64,000 nt of DNA from Hydrogenophilus thiooxidans (GTDB lineage: Bacteria > Pseudomonadota > Gammaproteobacteria > Burkholderiales > Rhodocyclaceae): the NCBI RefSeq assembly GCF_019049855.1, contig NZ_JAHLSY010000002.1, forward strand, positions 1-64,000, read 5' to 3'. The notes under the pieces are model-generated. The model worked only from the letters and a program-made list of their open reading frames with translations. It was not told where the DNA came from and did no database searches. Numbering within the stretch: position 1 is the stretch's first letter; every line of letters starts with the position of its first letter. This document shows positions 46,233-55,411 of the stretch, one piece after another. The position numbers and the translations under genes are program-made.

Positions 46233-46595
46233 TTGGCCACCGTGCTCGTCATCGATGACAGCAACACCATCCGCCGCAGCGCCGAACTCTTCCTGACCTC
46301 GGCGGGGCACCAGGTCATCCTCGCAACGGATGGCTTCGACGCGCTCACCAAAATCGTCGGCAATCCTCCCGATGTGATCTTCATCGATGTGATGATGCCA
46401 CGGCTTGACGGCTACCAAACCTGCGCCCTCCTCAAAAAGAACGACCGTTTCCGGCACATTCCCGTGATCATGCTCACCTCGAAAGACGGTGTTTTCGATC
46501 GCGCCCGCGGCGCGTTGGTCGGTTGTGACGAATACCTCACGAAACCATTTACCAAAAGTGAATTGTTGGCGGCGGTCGCCCGCCACACCACGTAA
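46233..46595 (+). CDS. pilG: Twitching motility response regulator PilG
   Basis: A 120-residue single receiver domain. Acidic residues D8/D9 and phosphoacceptor D52 in IFIDVMMPRLDG, lysine in EYLTKPFTK. In the Pil-Chp system PilG transmits the signal that stimulates pilus extension. The start is TTG at 46233 with GGAGG five bases upstream; there is no in-frame ATG nearby. First gene of the cluster. Confidence 0.93.
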   Translation: MATVLVIDDSNTIRRSAELFLTSAGHQVILATDGFDALTKIVGNPPDVIFIDVMMPRLDGYQTCALLKKNDRFRHIPVIMLTSKDGVFDRARGALVGCDEYLTKPFTKSELLAAVARHTT

Positions 46596-46609: not shown

Positions 46610-46975
46610 ATGGCCATCAAACGTATCCTCATTGTCGACGATTCCCCCACGGAACGCGCTGCGTTCCAGGAGATCCTGAGCGAAGCGGGGTATGAAACGC
46701 TCCTTGCCGCCTCGGGCGAAGAGGGGATTGCGCTTGCAAAGAGCGAAAAACCCGATGCGATCATCATGGACGTCGTGATGCCGGGCCTCAACGGCTTTCA
46801 AGCAACGCGGCAACTTGCGCGCGACGAAGCCACCCGCGCGATCCCGGTCATCATGTGCACCACCAAAGGCCAAGAGACGGACAAGATCTGGGGCTTGCGC
46901 CAAGGAGCGATCGCCTACCTCGTCAAACCGGTCGATCGCGCAACGCTTTTGGACGCGCTCAAGCAACTCGGTTGA
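46610..46975 (+). CDS. pilH: Twitching motility response regulator PilH
   Basis: A 121-residue single receiver domain with D10/D11, phosphoacceptor D54 in IIMDVVMPGLNG and the lysine in YLVKPVDR. PilH opposes or tunes PilG output in Pil-Chp signalling. It follows pilG by 14 bases and has AAGGAG before the start. Confidence 0.93.
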   Translation: MAIKRILIVDDSPTERAAFQEILSEAGYETLLAASGEEGIALAKSEKPDAIIMDVVMPGLNGFQATRQLARDEATRAIPVIMCTTKGQETDKIWGLRQGAIAYLVKPVDRATLLDALKQLG

Positions 46976-46979
46976 TCCC

Positions 46980-47516
46980 ATGGCCAAACGGACCGACATC
47001 CGCCGCTTTCAGGAAGCGCTCGCGCAAAAGCTCGCAGCGGCGCAGCAAAGAAGCGAAGGGATCGCCGCGCGCTGGCTCGGCGTGATGATCGGATCCCAAC
47101 CGGTACTGCTCCCGCTTGCGGCCACTGCTGGGGTGATCCAAGAATTCACACTGACGTCCGTGCCTTTTGCTCCAGCTCATTTCGCCGGTGTCACCAATGT
47201 CCGGGGGGAGCTCCACGACGTGATCGACCTTGCGCCGCTCCTTACCGAAGCCGCATCCGCGCCCAGCTCCTCGGCCCGGCTCGTGGTGCTGCAACCGGCA
47301 CGCACACCGCGCACTGCGCTCTTGGTTGCCCGGGTCGTAGGGCTGCGCCGCGAGGAATCGCTCGCCCACCGCTTGGCGGCTCCAGAAGCAAGTGGAATCA
47401 TTGCCCGCTGGCGTGAAGCAGGACCCAATCCCATCGAATGGCTGGAAATCGACCTCGCCTTCTGGCTGAAAAGAGCCGCGCTCCTTTTCCAACCTGCAGC
47501 GGAGCTACAACCATGA
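46980..47516 (+). CDS. pilI: CheW-like coupling protein PilI
   Basis: A 178-residue CheW-domain protein that connects the receptor PilJ to the kinase ChpA. The CheW fold covers about 30-165 (GVMIGSQPVLLPLAATAGVI, FAGVTNVRGELHDVIDLAPL, LEIDLAFWLKRA). It starts four bases after the pilH stop and its own stop overlaps the rhodanese gene start. Confidence 0.9.
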   Translation: MAKRTDIRRFQEALAQKLAAAQQRSEGIAARWLGVMIGSQPVLLPLAATAGVIQEFTLTSVPFAPAHFAGVTNVRGELHDVIDLAPLLTEAASAPSSSARLVVLQPARTPRTALLVARVVGLRREESLAHRLAAPEASGIIARWREAGPNPIEWLEIDLAFWLKRAALLFQPAAELQP

Positions 47517-48031
47517 ATGGGCTTTTTCGACTGGTGTTCACATGGGTCACCGCGGTGCTCGCAACACTCCCCATCATCGCAGCAGCTGCTGAGAACCCTG
47601 CCGACTATTTCGTCGACCATACCCCCCACTCCATTCCGGGGGGCACCCTCGTCGATGCCAGTAGCGCCCGACAACTCCAGATAGAAGGTGCCCTCTTCAT
47701 CGATACCCGCAGCGCCAGCGAATATCAGGCGGAGACCCTCCCGGGCGCGCGCCACGTTCCCTATCACGAGCAGTTCCCGCGCACCCGTCTCGTCGGACCA
47801 GAAGATCGCTTCGACGTTGCGCAACTTCCCGCAAACAAAGCCACACCGCTGACCTTCTTCTGCAACGGATCACCCTGTTGGAAAGGATATAAAGCAGCGC
47901 AACGGGCAATCGAAGCGGGCTACACCGCCGTTTATTGGTTCCGCGACGGTCTCCCGTCGTGGCAACGCGCTGGCTACCCCACCCAAAAGGGCGCCTCCTC
48001 GATGGAGACCCCCTCGTCGCCAAAAAATTGA
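47513..48031 (+). CDS. Exported rhodanese-like protein inside the pil-chp operon
   Basis: A 172-residue protein with a signal peptide (about 1-25, LFRLVFTWVTAVLATLPII then AAAA) and one rhodanese domain. LFIDTRSASEYQAETLPGAR gives the substrate-binding face; the active-site loop is FCNGSPCWKGYKAAQ, with a candidate catalytic cysteine at the first C of this loop and a second cysteine four residues later. PAD-type periplasmic rhodaneses of this form take part in sulfur or redox chemistry. It overlaps pilI by four bases and precedes pilJ by 27. I know no such gene as a standard part of the Pil-Chp cluster. Confidence 0.85.
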   Translation: MNGLFRLVFTWVTAVLATLPIIAAAAENPADYFVDHTPHSIPGGTLVDASSARQLQIEGALFIDTRSASEYQAETLPGARHVPYHEQFPRTRLVGPEDRFDVAQLPANKATPLTFFCNGSPCWKGYKAAQRAIEAGYTAVYWFRDGLPSWQRAGYPTQKGASSMETPSSPKN

Positions 48032-48058
48032 CGATTTGGACGAAAGGAACCATCGGCC

Positions 48059-50128
48059 ATGCTGACCTCGCTGTTACGTAAAACCTCCAAGACCACAAGC
48101 ACCCCCCGCGCGGCTCCGGCGTGGTGGCGTACCTTCCGCGGCCCGATCCTCGCAACCGTTCTCACCGTTCTGCTTGCGATGTTCGGTTTTCTCCTCATCG
48201 CGACACCGTTGCGTCTTGCTGAAGAGCAGGATACGTTGTTGCGCAACTTTGAAAACGCCCTCTTACCGCTCCAAGCGGCGGTTACTCAGATGGCTGCCGG
48301 AACGGACGCCCGCGCGGAATTACGCGCGATTGCCCAGGAACAGCGGGCGCGGATCGAGCGCTTGCACCAGTCGGCCCAAGCGCTGCGTGAGTCGCTCGGC
48401 TTTGCTTTTTGGACTGCGTTTGAAGAGGGGCGACAACAGGAGGTCGAAGGGCTTTTGGAACAGCTCGCGCAACTGTGGCGCCAAACGGAGGGAAGCCTCA
48501 GCGAAGCGATGAATAGCGAACGGCCCGTGGACGCCTTTCGCCAGACACTCGTGGAAATCGAGCAAACTGCGCAAGCGATCGCCGCGCTCGCTACGTCCCT
48601 TTCCGCTCAAGTAGCCGACCCGCGCCGCGCGCAACGGCCGCTCTTCGTCGCGCTTTTGGCGGAACGGATCGCGCAGCGTGTAAACCGCTTGCTTACCGTG
48701 CCCCCCACCGAGCGGGGAGCGCTACTCGAGGCGTTGGCAAGCGACCGCGACGCGCTCGGAGAACTGGCCCCCGCCATCGACGTCGCAGGGGAAGCGCCCA
48801 CCGTTGCGGCACGACTGCGCGAACTGGTCGACGCGACCCGTCTCCTGCAAGAGCGCGTCTCAGAGCTCATCCACGATACCCCTCGTTACTTTGCCCAGAC
48901 CGATAACCTGATCGTCGTGCAAAAGCGCCTCCCGCAGCTGCAAAAGGGCGCTGGGGCGCTCTACAAAGCGGTCGAAAAAGAGCTCGAAACCGCCCGCTCA
49001 GCGGTCAACCTCATCCTGATGCTGGTTGGGGTCGCGTTCGTTGGAATCGTCGTGCAACTCATCAAAAACTACCTTGACCTTCAGGCGTCGCAGCGCGCCC
49101 TCGAGCAGGCCGAACGGGCCAAAGCCGAAGCGGAAAACCGGCGGACGCAAGAGGCGATTTTGCGCCTCCTCAACGAAATGGCCGACCTTGCCGAAGGGGA
49201 CCTCACCATTCGCGCAACCGTGACCGAGGACGTAACGGGCGCAATCGCCGACTCGGTGAACTTCGCGATCGAAGAGCTCGGCAACCTCGTGCGCCGAATC
49301 AATGAAACCGCCGAACAGGTCGCGCAAGCAACGACACAGACGCAAGAGCGCTCGACGAATCTCTTGGCCACCGCCCAGCAACAATCGGAAGAGATCGAAG
49401 AGGCGGACGCAATCACCCAAGAGGTGGCGCAAGCGCTTTCCCGCGCGGCAGAGAGCGCCAACCAAGCGGCGCAGGCCGCACGCCGCTCGCTCGAAGCCTC
49501 GCAAAAAGGGACGCTTGCGGTGAACCAGTCGGTGGAAGGGATGGACCGGATCCGTGAGCAGATCCAAGAGACGGCGAAACGGATCAAACGGTTGGGCGAA
49601 TCGTCGCAGGAGATCGGTGAGATCGTCGAACTCATCTCCGACATTACCGAGCAGACCAACGTGCTGGCGCTGAACGCTGCGATTCAGGCCGCCGCTGCCG
49701 GGGAAGCGGGACGGGGCTTCTCGGTGGTTGCCGAAGAGGTGCAACGCCTTGCCGAACGCTCGGCGGAAGCGACGAAACAGATCGCTGCGATCGTGCGCAC
49801 CATTCAGACCGACACCCACGAAACCATCGCCGCGATGGAAGCGACGACGCAAGAGGTGGTGCAAGGGGCAGCGCTTTCGGAAGAGGCCCGCCGCGCGCTC
49901 GACGAGATCGCGAAAACCTCGCGCGAAACGGCCGCGCAGATCGCGCGGGTGACGCAAGAGATCCAAACCCAAGCGCAGCGCGGCGAAACCATTTCGCGCC
50001 TGATGCGCGACGTCTTGACACTGACCCAGACCACCCGCGCCGGTACCGAACAAACCGCCGAAGAGATCGCGCGGCTTGCTGACCTTGCCGCGGAATTGCG
50101 CGGCTCGGTTGCCGGGTTCCGGGTCTAA
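48059..50128 (+). CDS. pilJ: Methyl-accepting chemotaxis receptor PilJ
   Basis: A 689-residue receptor of the twitching system. Membrane helix 1 is at about 28-55 ([19 protein letters not shown]), a helical periplasmic sensor domain covers 56-310, and helix 2 is at about 314-338 ([19 protein letters not shown]). A HAMP-like segment follows, then the signalling helix bundle with its tip [20 protein letters not shown] and [16 protein letters not shown]. It signals to ChpA through PilI. Confidence 0.95.
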
Positions 50129-50146: not shown

Positions 50147-53100
50147 GTGGCTCGCCTCGACTTCGACGCGCTCTCCTGGATCGCTGACGAAATTTCCCGC
50201 GCGTTGCAAACGGCGCGCACCCTCGTTGCGGCATGCGCCACCCACTTCGACCCTGCGAATCTGCGCGAAGCGCAAACCCACCTCTTCGCCGCAAAAAGCG
50301 TCCTCGAAGTCGCCGAAATCCACCCCCTGCCGCGTTACCTGGCCCTGCTGGAAAAAGCGATCGATACCCTGGTCGACGCGCCAAATCTCTCGTCGGCAAC
50401 CCTCGCAACGCTCCAGCGCGCACTTGTGGCGATCGAGAACCTCTGGTATGAACTGACCCACCACCACCGTTGGCAGCCGTTACGGCTCCGAGATCCCTAC
50501 CTGGCACTTGCGCCACTTGCGAAAGCGACCCACGCGCACCCAACCGACCTTTGGCTCTTTCCGCTTCCCGAACCGGGGGGTACGCCGCAGATCCGCCCAC
50601 CCGAAGTGGAACAGACAGCCCGCACGAAACTGCGGCACCGCTTCACCCAGGGCCTTGCGCGTTGGCTCAAAACCGGCGACCCAGTCGCGCTCTTACCCGT
50701 GCGCGAAGCGCTGGTTGGTCGCCTCATGCTCGAGGCGGGACGGGATGACGAACCCCTCTGGATTGCCGCGACCGCATTCGTCGAAGCGCTCATCCGCAAG
50801 CAGCTTCACCGAGACAACGAATCACAACGCCTTCTGCGCCTTCTGCAGCGGGCGCAAAAAGAACTCCTCACCGCAGAATCCCGTCTGGCGCTTTTTCGCC
50901 AATTGCTTTTGCCGCTCGCGGCAGTTGCGCCGCAAACGCGCCTGCAGCGCCTCATCCACCAATATTGGCGTCCGCGCGATTGGCTCCAGGACGCCGCTCT
51001 TCCCCTTCCCGAGCAGCCGTTGATCGAGCTTGACCAGGCATTGGTCGCGGCAGCGCAACACGCCCAAACGCTCTGGGAAGAGGAAGCTGCCTGGCCGGAG
51101 CGGATCGAAGCGCTCTTTGCGGTAGCCCGCGCACTCTACGACCGCCCAGACCCCGAGATCCAAGCGCTGGCAGCCGCGTTGGAGGCCTTTGCTCAGCAGT
51201 TACCCGACGCTGCGGCGACCGACCCAGCGCGCGCGCTTCTGCTTGCAACCACGCTGCTTGCGCTCAAACAAGACGCCCAAGCAGGCACACTCACCGCAGC
51301 GCGATGCCGCCCGCTCGTCGATGAATGGCACGCAGCGCTTTCCGGGCAGCAACCCCACACGGGCGCCCCCGCTTGGGTCGAATCGGACGAATCGCTCACG
51401 CAGACCCTCACCGCCGAAGTGACGCAGCTCTGCGGCGAGATCGAGCACGCGCTCGACACCTTTTGGCGCACCCCAGAGGCGACCCTGCCCCTTGACGCGA
51501 TCAAGAAAGCGCTCGACCAGTTGGCCGCCATCTGTGTCGTCACCGACCACACCGCGCTCCTTTCCGAAATCGACGCGGTTCGTACCTGGTTGCAAACCGT
51601 CGCAGCGGGCAAACAGCGCTTCGACCCGCAAAACCCGCTGATCGCCCAAATCGCTACCTGGGGGCAACGGATCAGCCAACCTGCCCCCCCAAGCGAAAGC
51701 GAACCGCATCCCACCCCCATTCCGTGGGATCGCCTCTTTCCCCAGCACCTGGCATCTCTCCTGGCGACAGACGCCACCGCCACCGACGCGGTCCAGCCCA
51801 CGCTCGAACCGGCGCCACCGCACGAACCGCGCTCCGAAGCAGACGAAACCACCCGCGACGCGCCCCAACCGGAACCCTCTGCCACCCCCGTAGCCACAGC
51901 GGACGACACGAGGGCTAGCGAGACGGATAGCGACGAAACGGCCGAGCTGCGCGCGATCTTTCTCGCCGAATGCGACGAAATCCTTGCGGCGATGCATGAG
52001 GCCCGTGCGCAGCTCGAGCGGCAACCGACCCATCGTGACGCGCTTACCCAGTGGCGGAGGCAAGTCCATACCCTCAAAGGCAGCAGCCGCATCGTCGGCT
52101 TGACCCAACTCGGGGAAACGGCGTGGGAGGTCGAACAGACCCTCAACCACTGCCTGCGCCACCCCGACTTCGTCCCCTCGGCCGACTTTCTTGCGTTTCT
52201 GGCTGGTGCGGAAAACGCGTTCGCGCAAGCCGCCACAACGATCGCCCAAAGTGGCGAAGACCTTCCCGCCCCCATCGCGGAACTGGTCGAAGCGGCACAG
52301 CGCTGGCGCGCAACGCCACGATCAGAAAGCGAAGGCGCTCCCCCCCAACCCACCCCCCCGCACGCCGCAAGCGGCGCAGCGCCTCGCGAAGCGCCCACAC
52401 CCGAACGCGTGGCACCGCAATCGCAGGAACCCTCCACCCCTGCCGAAGCAGCGTTCGGTCAACATCCCGATTGGCACGCCATCGATTTCGAACCGGAGGC
52501 TGCCGCAGCGCCACAACCCGTTCCAAGCCAACCTGCGCCCCCCCAACCCGACCGCTACTTCACCTTTGGCGACCGCAAAGTCTCGCGCACCATCTTCGAG
52601 ATTTTCCGCACCGAAGCGCGCGAACATCTGGCCTCGCTCGCGCGCTTCCTGCACGACCCGGAAACCCCTTCGGATGCCGTCGTTCGCGCAGCCCATACGC
52701 TTGCCAGCATTTGCGGTACCGCGCAGATCCCCGAAATGCACGACCTCGCGCGGGCGTGGGAATTGCGGCTCCTTGCGATGCAACGCGCAGGCGAAGCCCC
52801 GAACGATCAAGACCTCACCCTTTTCCACGCGGTGCATACGGCGCTGCACACCGACCTCGTCACTGTCGAAGACGGGAAAATCCCGCCACGGCGCGACGAT
52901 TTGATCGCCACGCTCGAAACGCCACCCGCCGCTGCGCCAGAACCGTCTGCTGCGGCCACCTCCGCAGTCCCATCAGAAGCGCCCATTGTCGCCACCTTCG
53001 CAGTCCCAGCAGAAGCGCCCGCTGCAGCTTCCTCCGAGGGCACGCCAGAAACGCCGTCAGCAGCTCTTCCCTCTGCTGTTTCCCTCGAACCCCATCAGGA

Positions 53101-55411
53101 ACCCAGCCGACAACCGGAAACCGAACCCAGTGGCGAAACGGAGGATCACCTCGACACCGCGCTTCTGCCGATCTTCGCCGAAGAGGGGCGCGATCTCTTC
53201 GCGCAACTCGAAGCGGCGCTCGCGCAGCTCCCGGAACCGGCTGCGGCGCGCCCCGAAACCTTCGAACCGATCCTGCGGCTCTTGCATACCCTCAAAGGGA
53301 GCGCCCGAATGGCGGGGGCGCTCGCGCTGGGCGACCGCATCCACCAGATCGAACAGCACCTGAAAGAGGCGCCGCTTACCACCGCGCAGCACGCGCTCCC
53401 CGACCTCATTGCCGCTGCGCGCGCCCATTTCCTCCAACTTCTCACCCAACCGACCGAACCCCCTGCCGCGGCACACCCCGAAACCCAACCCCTTACGCCA
53501 CCCACCGACGAGCCCAAGACCGAAGCGCCGCTTGCCGCTTCTGCGGTGCTGCCGATGACCCTCCGCATTCCCGCGCCAACGATCGACCGCTGGGTCAATG
53601 AACTCAGCGAGATCGCGATCCAACGGGCGCGAGCCGAAAGCGAACTCGTCACCCTGCGCCAGGCCGCCAACGACCTCACCGAAAACGTCCAACGGCTGCG
53701 CCACCACCTGCGCGAACTCGAAATCCAAGCCGAAGCGCAACTCCAAGCGCGGATCCAAGTCGCGGAAACGCACCACACCGAATTCGACCCGCTCGAAATG
53801 GACCGCTACACGCGGCTTCAGGAGCTCACCCGGATCCTCGCCGAAGGGATCGCCGACGTTGGCACGTTGCAACAATCGATCGTGCGCACCGTCGATGCCG
53901 CGGAGGTGAGCCTCCATCGGCAATCGCGGCAAACGCGCGACCTGCAAGCAGAGATCACCGCACTGCGCGCAGTGCCCGTCGCGACGCTCTACGAGCGCTT
54001 CACGCGCCTCGTTGCACAAACCGCAGAAACCCTTGGCAAACGGGTCGAATTCGCGCTCTTCGGGGGCGAAACTCGCGTTGACCGCGCAGCGCTCGAACGG
54101 CTCACCCCGGCGCTCGAACACCTCTTGCGCAATGCCGTCGCCCACGGGATCGAAACCCCCGCCGAACGGCAAGCGCTCGGCAAATCCCCCACCGGACGCA
54201 TCACCCTCACCGTTTACGCCACCCAAGGGGAGACGCAGTGGACGCTCGCCGACGACGGTCGCGGCCTCGACGCCGAGCGGATCGCCGCCAAAGCGCGGGA
54301 AAAAGGGTGGCTGGCCCCCAATGAGTCGCCGACCGAAAGCGAGCTCTTGCGATTCATCTTCCGTTCGGGCTTCTCCACCGCCGACACGGTCTCCCAGATC
54401 GCAGGGCGTGGGGTCGGGCTCGACGTCGTGCAGGCCGAAATCGCCGCGTTGGGCGGGCGCATCGATGTCGCCAGCGAACCCGGCCGCGGCGTCCGTTTCC
54501 AGATTCGGATTCCCACGGAACTGGCGCTCACGCAACTGCTCCTGGTCACGGGTCACGGGCGCCGTTGGGGGATCCCCACCGAATGGATCGTCCATACGCA
54601 ACAATTCAAAGCCGAAGCGCTCGAATCCCTTTGGGCGGCCGGAACGATCGAACATCGGGGCGAAACCTACCCGCTCGTTGGGCTCCACACCCTGATTGCC
54701 GCACCGGAACCGGCGCGCGAAGGGCGCCATTGGGTGATTCTCACGCGGATCGGCGACGAACGGATCGCAATGTGGGTCGAAGCGATCGCCGGTCGCCAAG
54801 AGCTCGCCGCGAAGCCGACCGGGCCGTTCCTGCGCCGTGTCGGCGGGATTCTCGGCGCCGTGCTGCTCCCCGACGGGGAGATCACCTTGATCCTCCACCC
54901 CACCCAGCTCTTCCAAACGGCGCGTCAGACGACCGCGCAGCAGCCCAGAGCAGCGCACGCTTCCGCTCGCAGGGCTGCCACACCCTCTGGGGCCCAGAGC
55001 GACACCACCCCCGAAACCCAACGCGCTGCGCCCCTCATTCTGGTCGTCGACGACTCCCTCACCGTCCGGCGCCTTACGCAGCGGTTGCTCGAACGCCAAG
55101 GCTATCGCGTCCTGACTGCGAAAGATGGCCAAGAGGCGCTCGAAAAACTCCAAGACGCCGCACCGGCTGCGATTCTATCGGACATCGAAATGCCCCGCAT
55201 GGATGGATTCGAGCTCCTGCGCCACCTCCGGGCACACCCGACCACCCGAAATACCCCGGTGATCATGATCACCTCGCGCCTTGCCGAAAAACACCGCACC
55301 CACGCGTTCGAGCTGGGCGCCACCGACTATTTGGGCAAACCCTATCAAGAAGAGACGCTCTTGGCGCTGCTTGCTCGGCATGCGCCCCTGAGCGCACCCG
55401 CTGCCGGTTGA
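50147..55411 (+). CDS. chpA: ChpA/PilL-type hybrid chemosensory histidine kinase
   Basis: A 1754-residue kinase with the architecture of ChpA/PilL. Residues 1-110 look like a dead Hpt (HLFAAKSVLEVAE lacks the usual histidine site). Hpt with HTLKGSSR at about 641, a second with HTLASICG at about 848 (histidine kept, Lys-Gly lost), a third with HTLKGSAR at about 1046. Then the CheA dimerisation and ATPase region (LRNAVAHGIETP, DDGRGLDAE, GRGVGLDVV about 1320-1430), CheW-like domain (about 1465-1600) and receiver (about 1630-1750; aspartate in LSDIEMPRMDG). It is shorter than the Pseudomonas ChpA of about 2500 residues, which has more Hpt-like domains. Confidence 0.95.
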   Translation: MARLDFDALSWIADEISRALQTARTLVAACATHFDPANLREAQTHLFAAKSVLEVAEIHPLPRYLALLEKAIDTLVDAPNLSSATLATLQRALVAIENLWYELTHHHRWQPLRLRDPYLALAPLAKATHAHPTDLWLFPLPEPGGTPQIRPPEVEQTARTKLRHRFTQGLARWLKTGDPVALLPVREALVGRLMLEAGRDDEPLWIAATAFVEALIRKQLHRDNESQRLLRLLQRAQKELLTAESRLALFRQLLLPLAAVAPQTRLQRLIHQYWRPRDWLQDAALPLPEQPLIELDQALVAAAQHAQTLWEEEAAWPERIEALFAVARALYDRPDPEIQALAAALEAFAQQLPDAAATDPARALLLATTLLALKQDAQAGTLTAARCRPLVDEWHAALSGQQPHTGAPAWVESDESLTQTLTAEVTQLCGEIEHALDTFWRTPEATLPLDAIKKALDQLAAICVVTDHTALLSEIDAVRTWLQTVAAGKQRFDPQNPLIAQIATWGQRISQPAPPSESEPHPTPIPWDRLFPQHLASLLATDATATDAVQPTLEPAPPHEPRSEADETTRDAPQPEPSATPVATADDTRASETDSDETAELRAIFLAECDEILAAMHEARAQLERQPTHRDALTQWRRQVHTLKGSSRIVGLTQLGETAWEVEQTLNHCLRHPDFVPSADFLAFLAGAENAFAQAATTIAQSGEDLPAPIAELVEAAQRWRATPRSESEGAPPQPTPPHAASGAAPREAPTPERVAPQSQEPSTPAEAAFGQHPDWHAIDFEPEAAAAPQPVPSQPAPPQPDRYFTFGDRKVSRTIFEIFRTEAREHLASLARFLHDPETPSDAVVRAAHTLASICGTAQIPEMHDLARAWELRLLAMQRAGEAPNDQDLTLFHAVHTALHTDLVTVEDGKIPPRRDDLIATLETPPAAAPEPSAAATSAVPSEAPIVATFAVPAEAPAAASSEGTPETPSAALPSAVSLEPHQEPSRQPETEPSGETEDHLDTALLPIFAEEGRDLFAQLEAALAQLPEPAAARPETFEPILRLLHTLKGSARMAGALALGDRIHQIEQHLKEAPLTTAQHALPDLIAAARAHFLQLLTQPTEPPAAAHPETQPLTPPTDEPKTEAPLAASAVLPMTLRIPAPTIDRWVNELSEIAIQRARAESELVTLRQAANDLTENVQRLRHHLRELEIQAEAQLQARIQVAETHHTEFDPLEMDRYTRLQELTRILAEGIADVGTLQQSIVRTVDAAEVSLHRQSRQTRDLQAEITALRAVPVATLYERFTRLVAQTAETLGKRVEFALFGGETRVDRAALERLTPALEHLLRNAVAHGIETPAERQALGKSPTGRITLTVYATQGETQWTLADDGRGLDAERIAAKAREKGWLAPNESPTESELLRFIFRSGFSTADTVSQIAGRGVGLDVVQAEIAALGGRIDVASEPGRGVRFQIRIPTELALTQLLLVTGHGRRWGIPTEWIVHTQQFKAEALESLWAAGTIEHRGETYPLVGLHTLIAAPEPAREGRHWVILTRIGDERIAMWVEAIAGRQELAAKPTGPFLRRVGGILGAVLLPDGEITLILHPTQLFQTARQTTAQQPRAAHASARRAATPSGAQSDTTPETQRAAPLILVVDDSLTVRRLTQRLLERQGYRVLTAKDGQEALEKLQDAAPAAILSDIEMPRMDGFELLRHLRAHPTTRNTPVIMITSRLAEKHRTHAFELGATDYLGKPYQEETLLALLARHAPLSAPAAG

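Follow-up and report, generated by a model that had tools for sequence, protein, structure and literature searches.

Among described sensors of sulfur compounds, the thiosulfate sensor kinase related to TtrS is ThsS. TtrS likely binds tetrathionate via a PhnD-like domain, and a search with PF12974 led to thiosulfate sensor kinases (PMC5408782). For pilus-driven movement, a 2025 review of the Pil-Chp system holds that the receptor PilJ could take up its ligands either directly or with a solute-binding protein as intermediary, and a word search of its main text gave no occurrence of rhodanese, thiosulfate or sulfur (PMC12632253).

Here we consider a Pil-Chp operon of Hydrogenophilus thiooxidans with a rhodanese gene in its midst, located in a stretch of 64,000 nucleotides (the window) to which all coordinates refer. 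The most likely function of the encoded protein, to which we give about an even chance, is that of a periplasmic co-sensor with a rhodanese fold, signalling sulfur status to PilJ. The features of the locus, with identities to the congeneric genome G002 where these apply, are:

46233-46595, forward strand: pilG-like response regulator with a TTG start (PF00072, E=1.6e-26; 96.7% identity in G002)
46610-46975, forward strand: pilH-like response regulator (PF00072, E=1.4e-28; 92.6% identity in G002)
46980-47516, forward strand: pilI, CheW-like coupling protein (PF01584, E=6e-13)
approx. 47250-49100, forward strand: block sharply divergent from G002, from 100-bp windows; the rhodanese is absent in G002
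47513-48031, forward strand: rhodanese, 172 aa, probably exported (open reading frame, Pfam and structure alignment)
47513-47590, forward strand: putative Sec signal peptide, residues 1-26, judged by eye
47861-47881, forward strand: loop C117-N-G-S-P-C122-W123 (13-row alignment)
48059-50128, forward strand: pilJ, methyl-accepting receptor (MCPsignal PF00015, E=2.8e-35)
about 48059-49144, forward strand: sensory half of pilJ
about 49145-50125, forward strand: signalling half of pilJ
50147-55411, forward strand: chpA-like hybrid kinase with Hpt (three stretches), HATPase, CheW and response regulator domains (Pfam)

The names pilG, pilH, pilI, pilJ and chpA were assigned from gene order and domains, and the order pilG-pilH-pilI-rho-pilJ-chpA, with the rhodanese (rho) between coupling protein and receptor, is that of a Pil-Chp operon. 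The original prediction had the rhodanese translationally coupled to pilI and just before pilJ, and the locus bears this out: the pilI stop, ending at 47516, overlaps the rhodanese start as ATGA, a GGAG lies inside pilI eight bases 5' of the rhodanese start codon, and pilJ starts at 48059, 27 bp past the rhodanese stop. Thiosulfate oxidation is plausible in this organism because its genome encodes SoxB (897.6 bits, cut-off 550), as does that of G002; SoxB was considered as a discriminator between the two species and set aside, being above the cut-off in both (G000, the window genome, and G002).

The protein matches the Pfam Rhodanese family PF00581 with E=6e-12 (46.3 bits, gathering cut-off 22.2). 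Its AlphaFold model (mean pLDDT 78.6) aligns with solved rhodaneses, with Z 10.7 for 3tp9 and Z 9.8 for GlpE (1gmx; rmsd 3.2, 101 residues aligned) and Foldseek E-values of only about 1e-3 (best 1.4e-3), and from this alignment a rhodanese fold is predicted. By eye, the N-terminus has a basic residue, a hydrophobic stretch and an Ala-rich end, and the N-termini of 12 relatives are comparable; together these suggest that the protein is probably exported to the periplasm, in agreement with the exported rhodanese originally proposed. We take the open reading frame to be coding because 11 of the 12 loci found in a genome scan match it at 43-57% identity (the twelfth matches in part), and because C117, N118, G119, C122 and W123 are invariant in all 13 aligned rows, leaving C-x4-C-W intact in the window protein. 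Among 60 family-conserved columns, meaning those where conservation extends to 11 or more of the 12 remaining alignment rows, the protein retains 43, the cysteine loop included, and has altered 17. A foreign base composition was also considered, and the GC content of the gene (60.3%, against 63.8% for the window) is uninformative.

The nearest relatives of this rhodanese are found beside chemoreceptors. The scan with the window rhodanese gave 12 loci, to which a search of 61 relatives added L002, and at all 13 a same-strand chemoreceptor (MCP) lies 23-247 bp downstream; the tblastn test alone scored 12 of 13, since the L040 contig ends inside the MCP. By tblastn with the PilJ signalling half, no MCP was found in flanks of up to 1.5 kb at 22 control loci with other rhodaneses (L009-L030), and this difference argues for a co-sensor. 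The same query found no MCP at six loci with intermediate matches (L003-L008), one of which, L006, has an adjoining histidine kinase. The 13 loci are not all independent, because 6 of the 12 scan loci belong, by their identical rhodanese domains, to one genus, g129, which tells against a co-sensor; the others come, by title, from Accumulibacter, Geothrix, Competibacteraceae, Terriglobia, Holophagaceae and Parasulfuritortus. The original prediction is supported in that relatives repeatedly adjoin receptors, and in g129, as set out below, a fusion form adjoins Pil genes.

The 13 paired receptors carry MCPsignal in every case, HAMP in 12 and 4HB_MCP_1 in 10 (Pfam). A model of their shared sensory module (mean pLDDT 85.8) has helices at residues 5-70, 76-103, 108-136 and 140-228, and many invariant residues, Arg among those of the module, are located near two interhelix turns distant from the membrane. 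In seven diverse members (21 pairs), mean pairwise identity is 59.2% at this tip, taken as membrane-distal from the helix boundaries of the model, against 26-33% in other periplasmic parts; the whole signalling part of the same receptors averages 37.1% and the signalling hairpin tip 80.7%. The tip bears the motifs E-x-R-x-R, P-x-V-G-S-x-N and L-E-D-[ED]-W-P, and a conserved-tip receptor with an exported rhodanese is encoded at L033-L044, L002, L048-L050, L052-L054, L056 and L126-L135. Among the matches listed, drawn from few subscription journals and taken by title and start of abstract, we found no paper on a rhodanese-chemoreceptor pair, nor did we find one on this conserved-tip receptor family paired with an exported rhodanese.

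A soluble protein partner could dock at the conserved tip, and its conservation is one of our reasons for proposing a co-sensor; equally, a small ligand could bind there directly, which would count against one. Alternatively, the rhodanese may be an enzyme that makes or removes the PilJ ligand without touching PilJ, for example by converting thiosulfate to sulfite or cyanide to thiocyanate, an explanation that we regard as unlikely but the best placed of the alternatives. The module bears a weak likeness to NarQ, a nitrate sensor (Foldseek E=3e-3, probability 1.00), its nearest solved folds being NarQ and Tar/Tsr-like bundles, all weak with E above 1e-3, and its invariant Arg residues would be suited to binding a small oxyanion directly. 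An enzyme would also fit with the retention of C-x4-C-W by the window protein and by 78 of the 86 rows of a wider family alignment, in which W is replaced by F in two rows and by M in one. Against it, in five rows (L006, L118, L120, L121 and L122) both cysteines are replaced, giving S-D-G-P-x-G-W, and members without either cysteine still have receptors as neighbours: L118, L121 and L122 adjoin an MCP and L006 adjoins a HAMP-HisKA-HATPase kinase, while downstream of L120 come two ORFs, of which the second is truncated where the contig ends and matches nothing in Pfam. Because cysteine-free members persist beside receptors (three beside MCPs and one beside a kinase, of five), some family members may play a binding role, which favours a co-sensor in the window as well.

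The PhnD-like domain found in g129 also tells against an enzyme, and the genus provides a second arrangement with Pil genes. Its name is unsure (G544 matches a Thiobacillus denitrificans record and G545 a Hydrogenophilus sp. record), and L042, titled Hydrogenophilus sp., groups with it, since its rhodanese domain and the one in G545 are identical, and its title may therefore be outdated. All 23 g129 genomes have a family member; the rhodanese-receptor pair is present in 12, confirmed at 12 of 12 loci, and six of these genomes are those already in the 12-locus scan. In 21 of the 23 the rhodanese is part of a fusion-length open frame of 396-526 aa, which at all 19 loci examined (of the 21) directly precedes, without a change of strand, a pair of response regulators and a PilI-like protein; pilJ and chpA then follow in the four longer regions, with chpA incomplete in L090. 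Loci with this arrangement include L086:1258-2577, L088:1410-2600 and L136-L150. A PF12974 (PhnD-like) domain was found in four of four g129 fusions tested and two of two from other genera, so that all six long proteins tested join the rhodanese to a binding-type domain. Both the recurrent position upstream of pilG-pilH-pilI and the fusion partner, the domain type with which TtrS likely binds tetrathionate and with which thiosulfate sensors were sought (PMC5408782), argue for a co-sensor.

The wider family sets bounds on this picture. Among 399 genomes of the order, 45, counting the window's, had a match at E<=1e-15. In the standalone set of 23 members above 100 bits, from which the window's was left out, an MCP lies directly downstream on the same strand in 11 (two of these MCPs, L118 and L122, are split over two ORFs, and L118 contains runs of N); of the other 12, whose want of an adjoining same-strand MCP tells against a co-sensor, a convergent MCP is present in one and a hybrid histidine kinase in another, seven precede a PF03601-like gene and three have none of these. 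The same is true of the 22 fusion-length members, of which four adjoin Pil genes, all in g129, and 18 do not, and of a survey of 398 genomes of the phylum, in which seven had a match at E<=1e-25 (the window's included) and an MCP was nearby at only one of six new loci; at three of the four phylum-survey loci with listed ORFs the rhodanese precedes a MIYT[KH]KSP-type protein. Pairing with receptors is thus strong within one clade; elsewhere it is common without being universal.

Another subclade of the rhodaneses precedes a membrane-type protein, as at L107:5162-6916, with the same arrangement at L108, L111, L112, L114, L116, L119, L151, L152 and L154. PF03601 (Cons_hypoth698), which we take to be the YeiH family, was identified in L107, the one locus compared with Pfam, and the other six of the seven PF03601-like genes above look alike by gene start; the rhodanese and the PF03601-type protein are perhaps a sulfur-transport unit. 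Rhodaneses beside the PF03601-like gene also average 13% Lys. We had considered loss of Lys in the window protein as a sign of a changed partner (by eye, 8 of the 11 conserved Lys columns are altered, and 9 of the 49 remaining conserved columns; Fisher p=0.0009), and dropped the argument because Lys richness is not particular to the receptor-linked members.

In a tree of the 86 rows, the window protein falls in a 19-row clade with 18 receptor-linked rhodaneses, with support of 100/100, which argues for a co-sensor; an inner group of six rows has support of 92/97, and five further receptor-linked rows fall outside the clade. The window branch is 1.42 long against a median of 0.15, and the tree program flags such rows as unsure. 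Its position is consequently unsure, and the long branch, which also fits relaxed constraint, weighs against a co-sensor together with the 17 altered columns. By tree grouping, then, the window protein belongs with the receptor-linked members, subject to that flag, and by its neighbour it does not, since the neighbour is PilJ and not a receptor with the shared sensory module. A relationship between the PilJ sensor and that module was considered and rejected, there being no profile similarity, so that docking on the window PilJ would need a new partner, a further point against; among the six candidates scored, of 14 picked out at first look in the window genome, none was a shared-module receptor at E<=1e-10.

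DNA identity to G002 (locus L032) is about 40-70% per 100-bp window between late pilI and the point where the PilJ sensory half ends, with edges that are approximate because they are taken from those windows, and mostly 82-98% outside this block, in pilG, pilH, early pilI and the PilJ signalling half; in early chpA it drops as low as 74%. PilI is 84.4% identical over its first 90 residues and 50.6% over the remainder, and PilJ is 44.9% identical in its sensory half against 97.6% in its last 327 residues, the signalling half. For G345/G235, the nearest control pair, the corresponding PilJ values are 82.7% and 93.6%, and for five more distant pairs they are 57.7-61.7% and 77.1-83.8%. Fast evolution of sensory domains alone explains the PilJ contrast poorly, and for this reason we infer the replacement of a block that takes in the late part of pilI together with the rhodanese and the sensory half of PilJ; the PilJ contrast is a point in favour of a co-sensor. 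Among 150 genomes of the taxonomic family, the only strong homologue of the PilJ sensor besides the window's own is that of G002, and three more matches are weak (E from 3e-7 to 7e-4). G001, a third genome from the genus and 76% complete, yielded neither a PilJ-sensor nor a pilG match at the thresholds used.

The block could have carried the rhodanese in as a passenger with no role in PilJ signalling, the protein being a general periplasmic sulfurtransferase or in decay, which we consider improbable. Conservation of the pilI-rhodanese-pilJ order, the proposed check on the original prediction, was not borne out: the order is known from the window genome only, among the genomes examined, and its uniqueness is one half of the outcome that was to count against that prediction. 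A pilG search of 61 genomes matched 43, and 30 loci were taken, the window's included; at none of the remaining 29 was a rhodanese (E up to 1e-3) found within ~1.5 kb either side of pilG, and pilJ follows pilI by 2-207 bp in 24 (in five it was not located by the search). In G002, about 27 bp separate pilI from the adjacent pilJ, with no rhodanese between them, and the genome has a single weak match to the window rhodanese (36% identity, E=2.6e-7). Occurrence in one genome, absence from the congener, the long branch and the 17 changed columns are all as expected of a passenger, and the first of these is a point against a co-sensor. They must be set against an intact open reading frame that has kept its cysteine loop and its overlap with pilI, the grouping of the protein with receptor-linked members, and, in another genus, a relative that is linked separately to Pil genes. 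A thiol or redox helper that maintains the proper state of cysteines in PilJ or in components of the pilus would account for two cysteines five residues apart, and is very improbable given that family and fold are those of a rhodanese and that cysteine-free members persist beside receptors.

If the protein is instead a co-sensor for PilJ, C117 would bind a periplasmic sulfur species, such as sulfane sulfur from thiosulfate, polysulfide or persulfide, possibly forming C117-SSH or a C117-C122 disulfide; the ligand would probably be sulfane sulfur or thiosulfate. In its loaded or its empty form the rhodanese would dock on PilJ's periplasmic domain, in the way that certain chemoreceptors are engaged by solute-binding proteins, and PilJ would pass the signal via PilI and ChpA to PilG and PilH, biasing pilus-driven movement. 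The gene would descend from a rhodanese-plus-chemoreceptor pair, its partner having changed on entry into the Pil operon. In this context, the sulfur-sensing role first suggested for the gene survives in part, since it fits the PhnD-like fusion partner, SoxB and the conserved cysteine loop, and suffers from an order that is not conserved. More tentatively, and with somewhat less than an even chance, we suggest that these rhodaneses form a family of rhodanese-fold periplasmic co-receptors reporting sulfur status to membrane sensors, namely chemoreceptors, histidine kinases and Pil-Chp systems (in two different arrangements), in which some members would have lost the loop cysteines and kept binding alone, and the window member would have switched to PilJ, whose sensory half changed alongside, so that surface movement by pili would be sulfur-guided.

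To our knowledge, it is an open question how lithotrophs locate sulfur compounds at surfaces, and likewise what PilJ detects in organisms other than the models. A rhodanese acting as a soluble receptor partner, if confirmed, would extend binding-protein-assisted sensing to an enzyme fold; the idea could be tested in culturable sulfur oxidisers.

Of the closest known systems, the Pil-Chp system has the gene order of the window operon except for the rhodanese between pilI and pilJ; the PilJ domain PF13675 is below its cut-off in the window receptor (E=0.46, 11 bits against 26.6), and reaches E=8.8e-20 in the g129 PilJ of L088. PQQ_CXXCW (NCBIfam TIGR03865) is the best-scoring named family for the rhodanese, and the matched stretch spans the active-site region, but the score of 62.8 bits is half the cut-off of 128.05 and the context in the window is chemosensory. 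TtrS and the thiosulfate sensor kinase (PMC5408782) share with the g129 rhodanese fusion upstream of pilG the PF12974 domain type, which in those sensors is part of the kinase, whereas the window gene is without such a domain. Finally, in PstS-CtpL of Pseudomonas aeruginosa, as cited in PMC12632253, a soluble periplasmic protein would likewise present its ligand to a receptor; the window candidate has a predicted rhodanese fold instead, and would dock on PilJ in the corresponding way.
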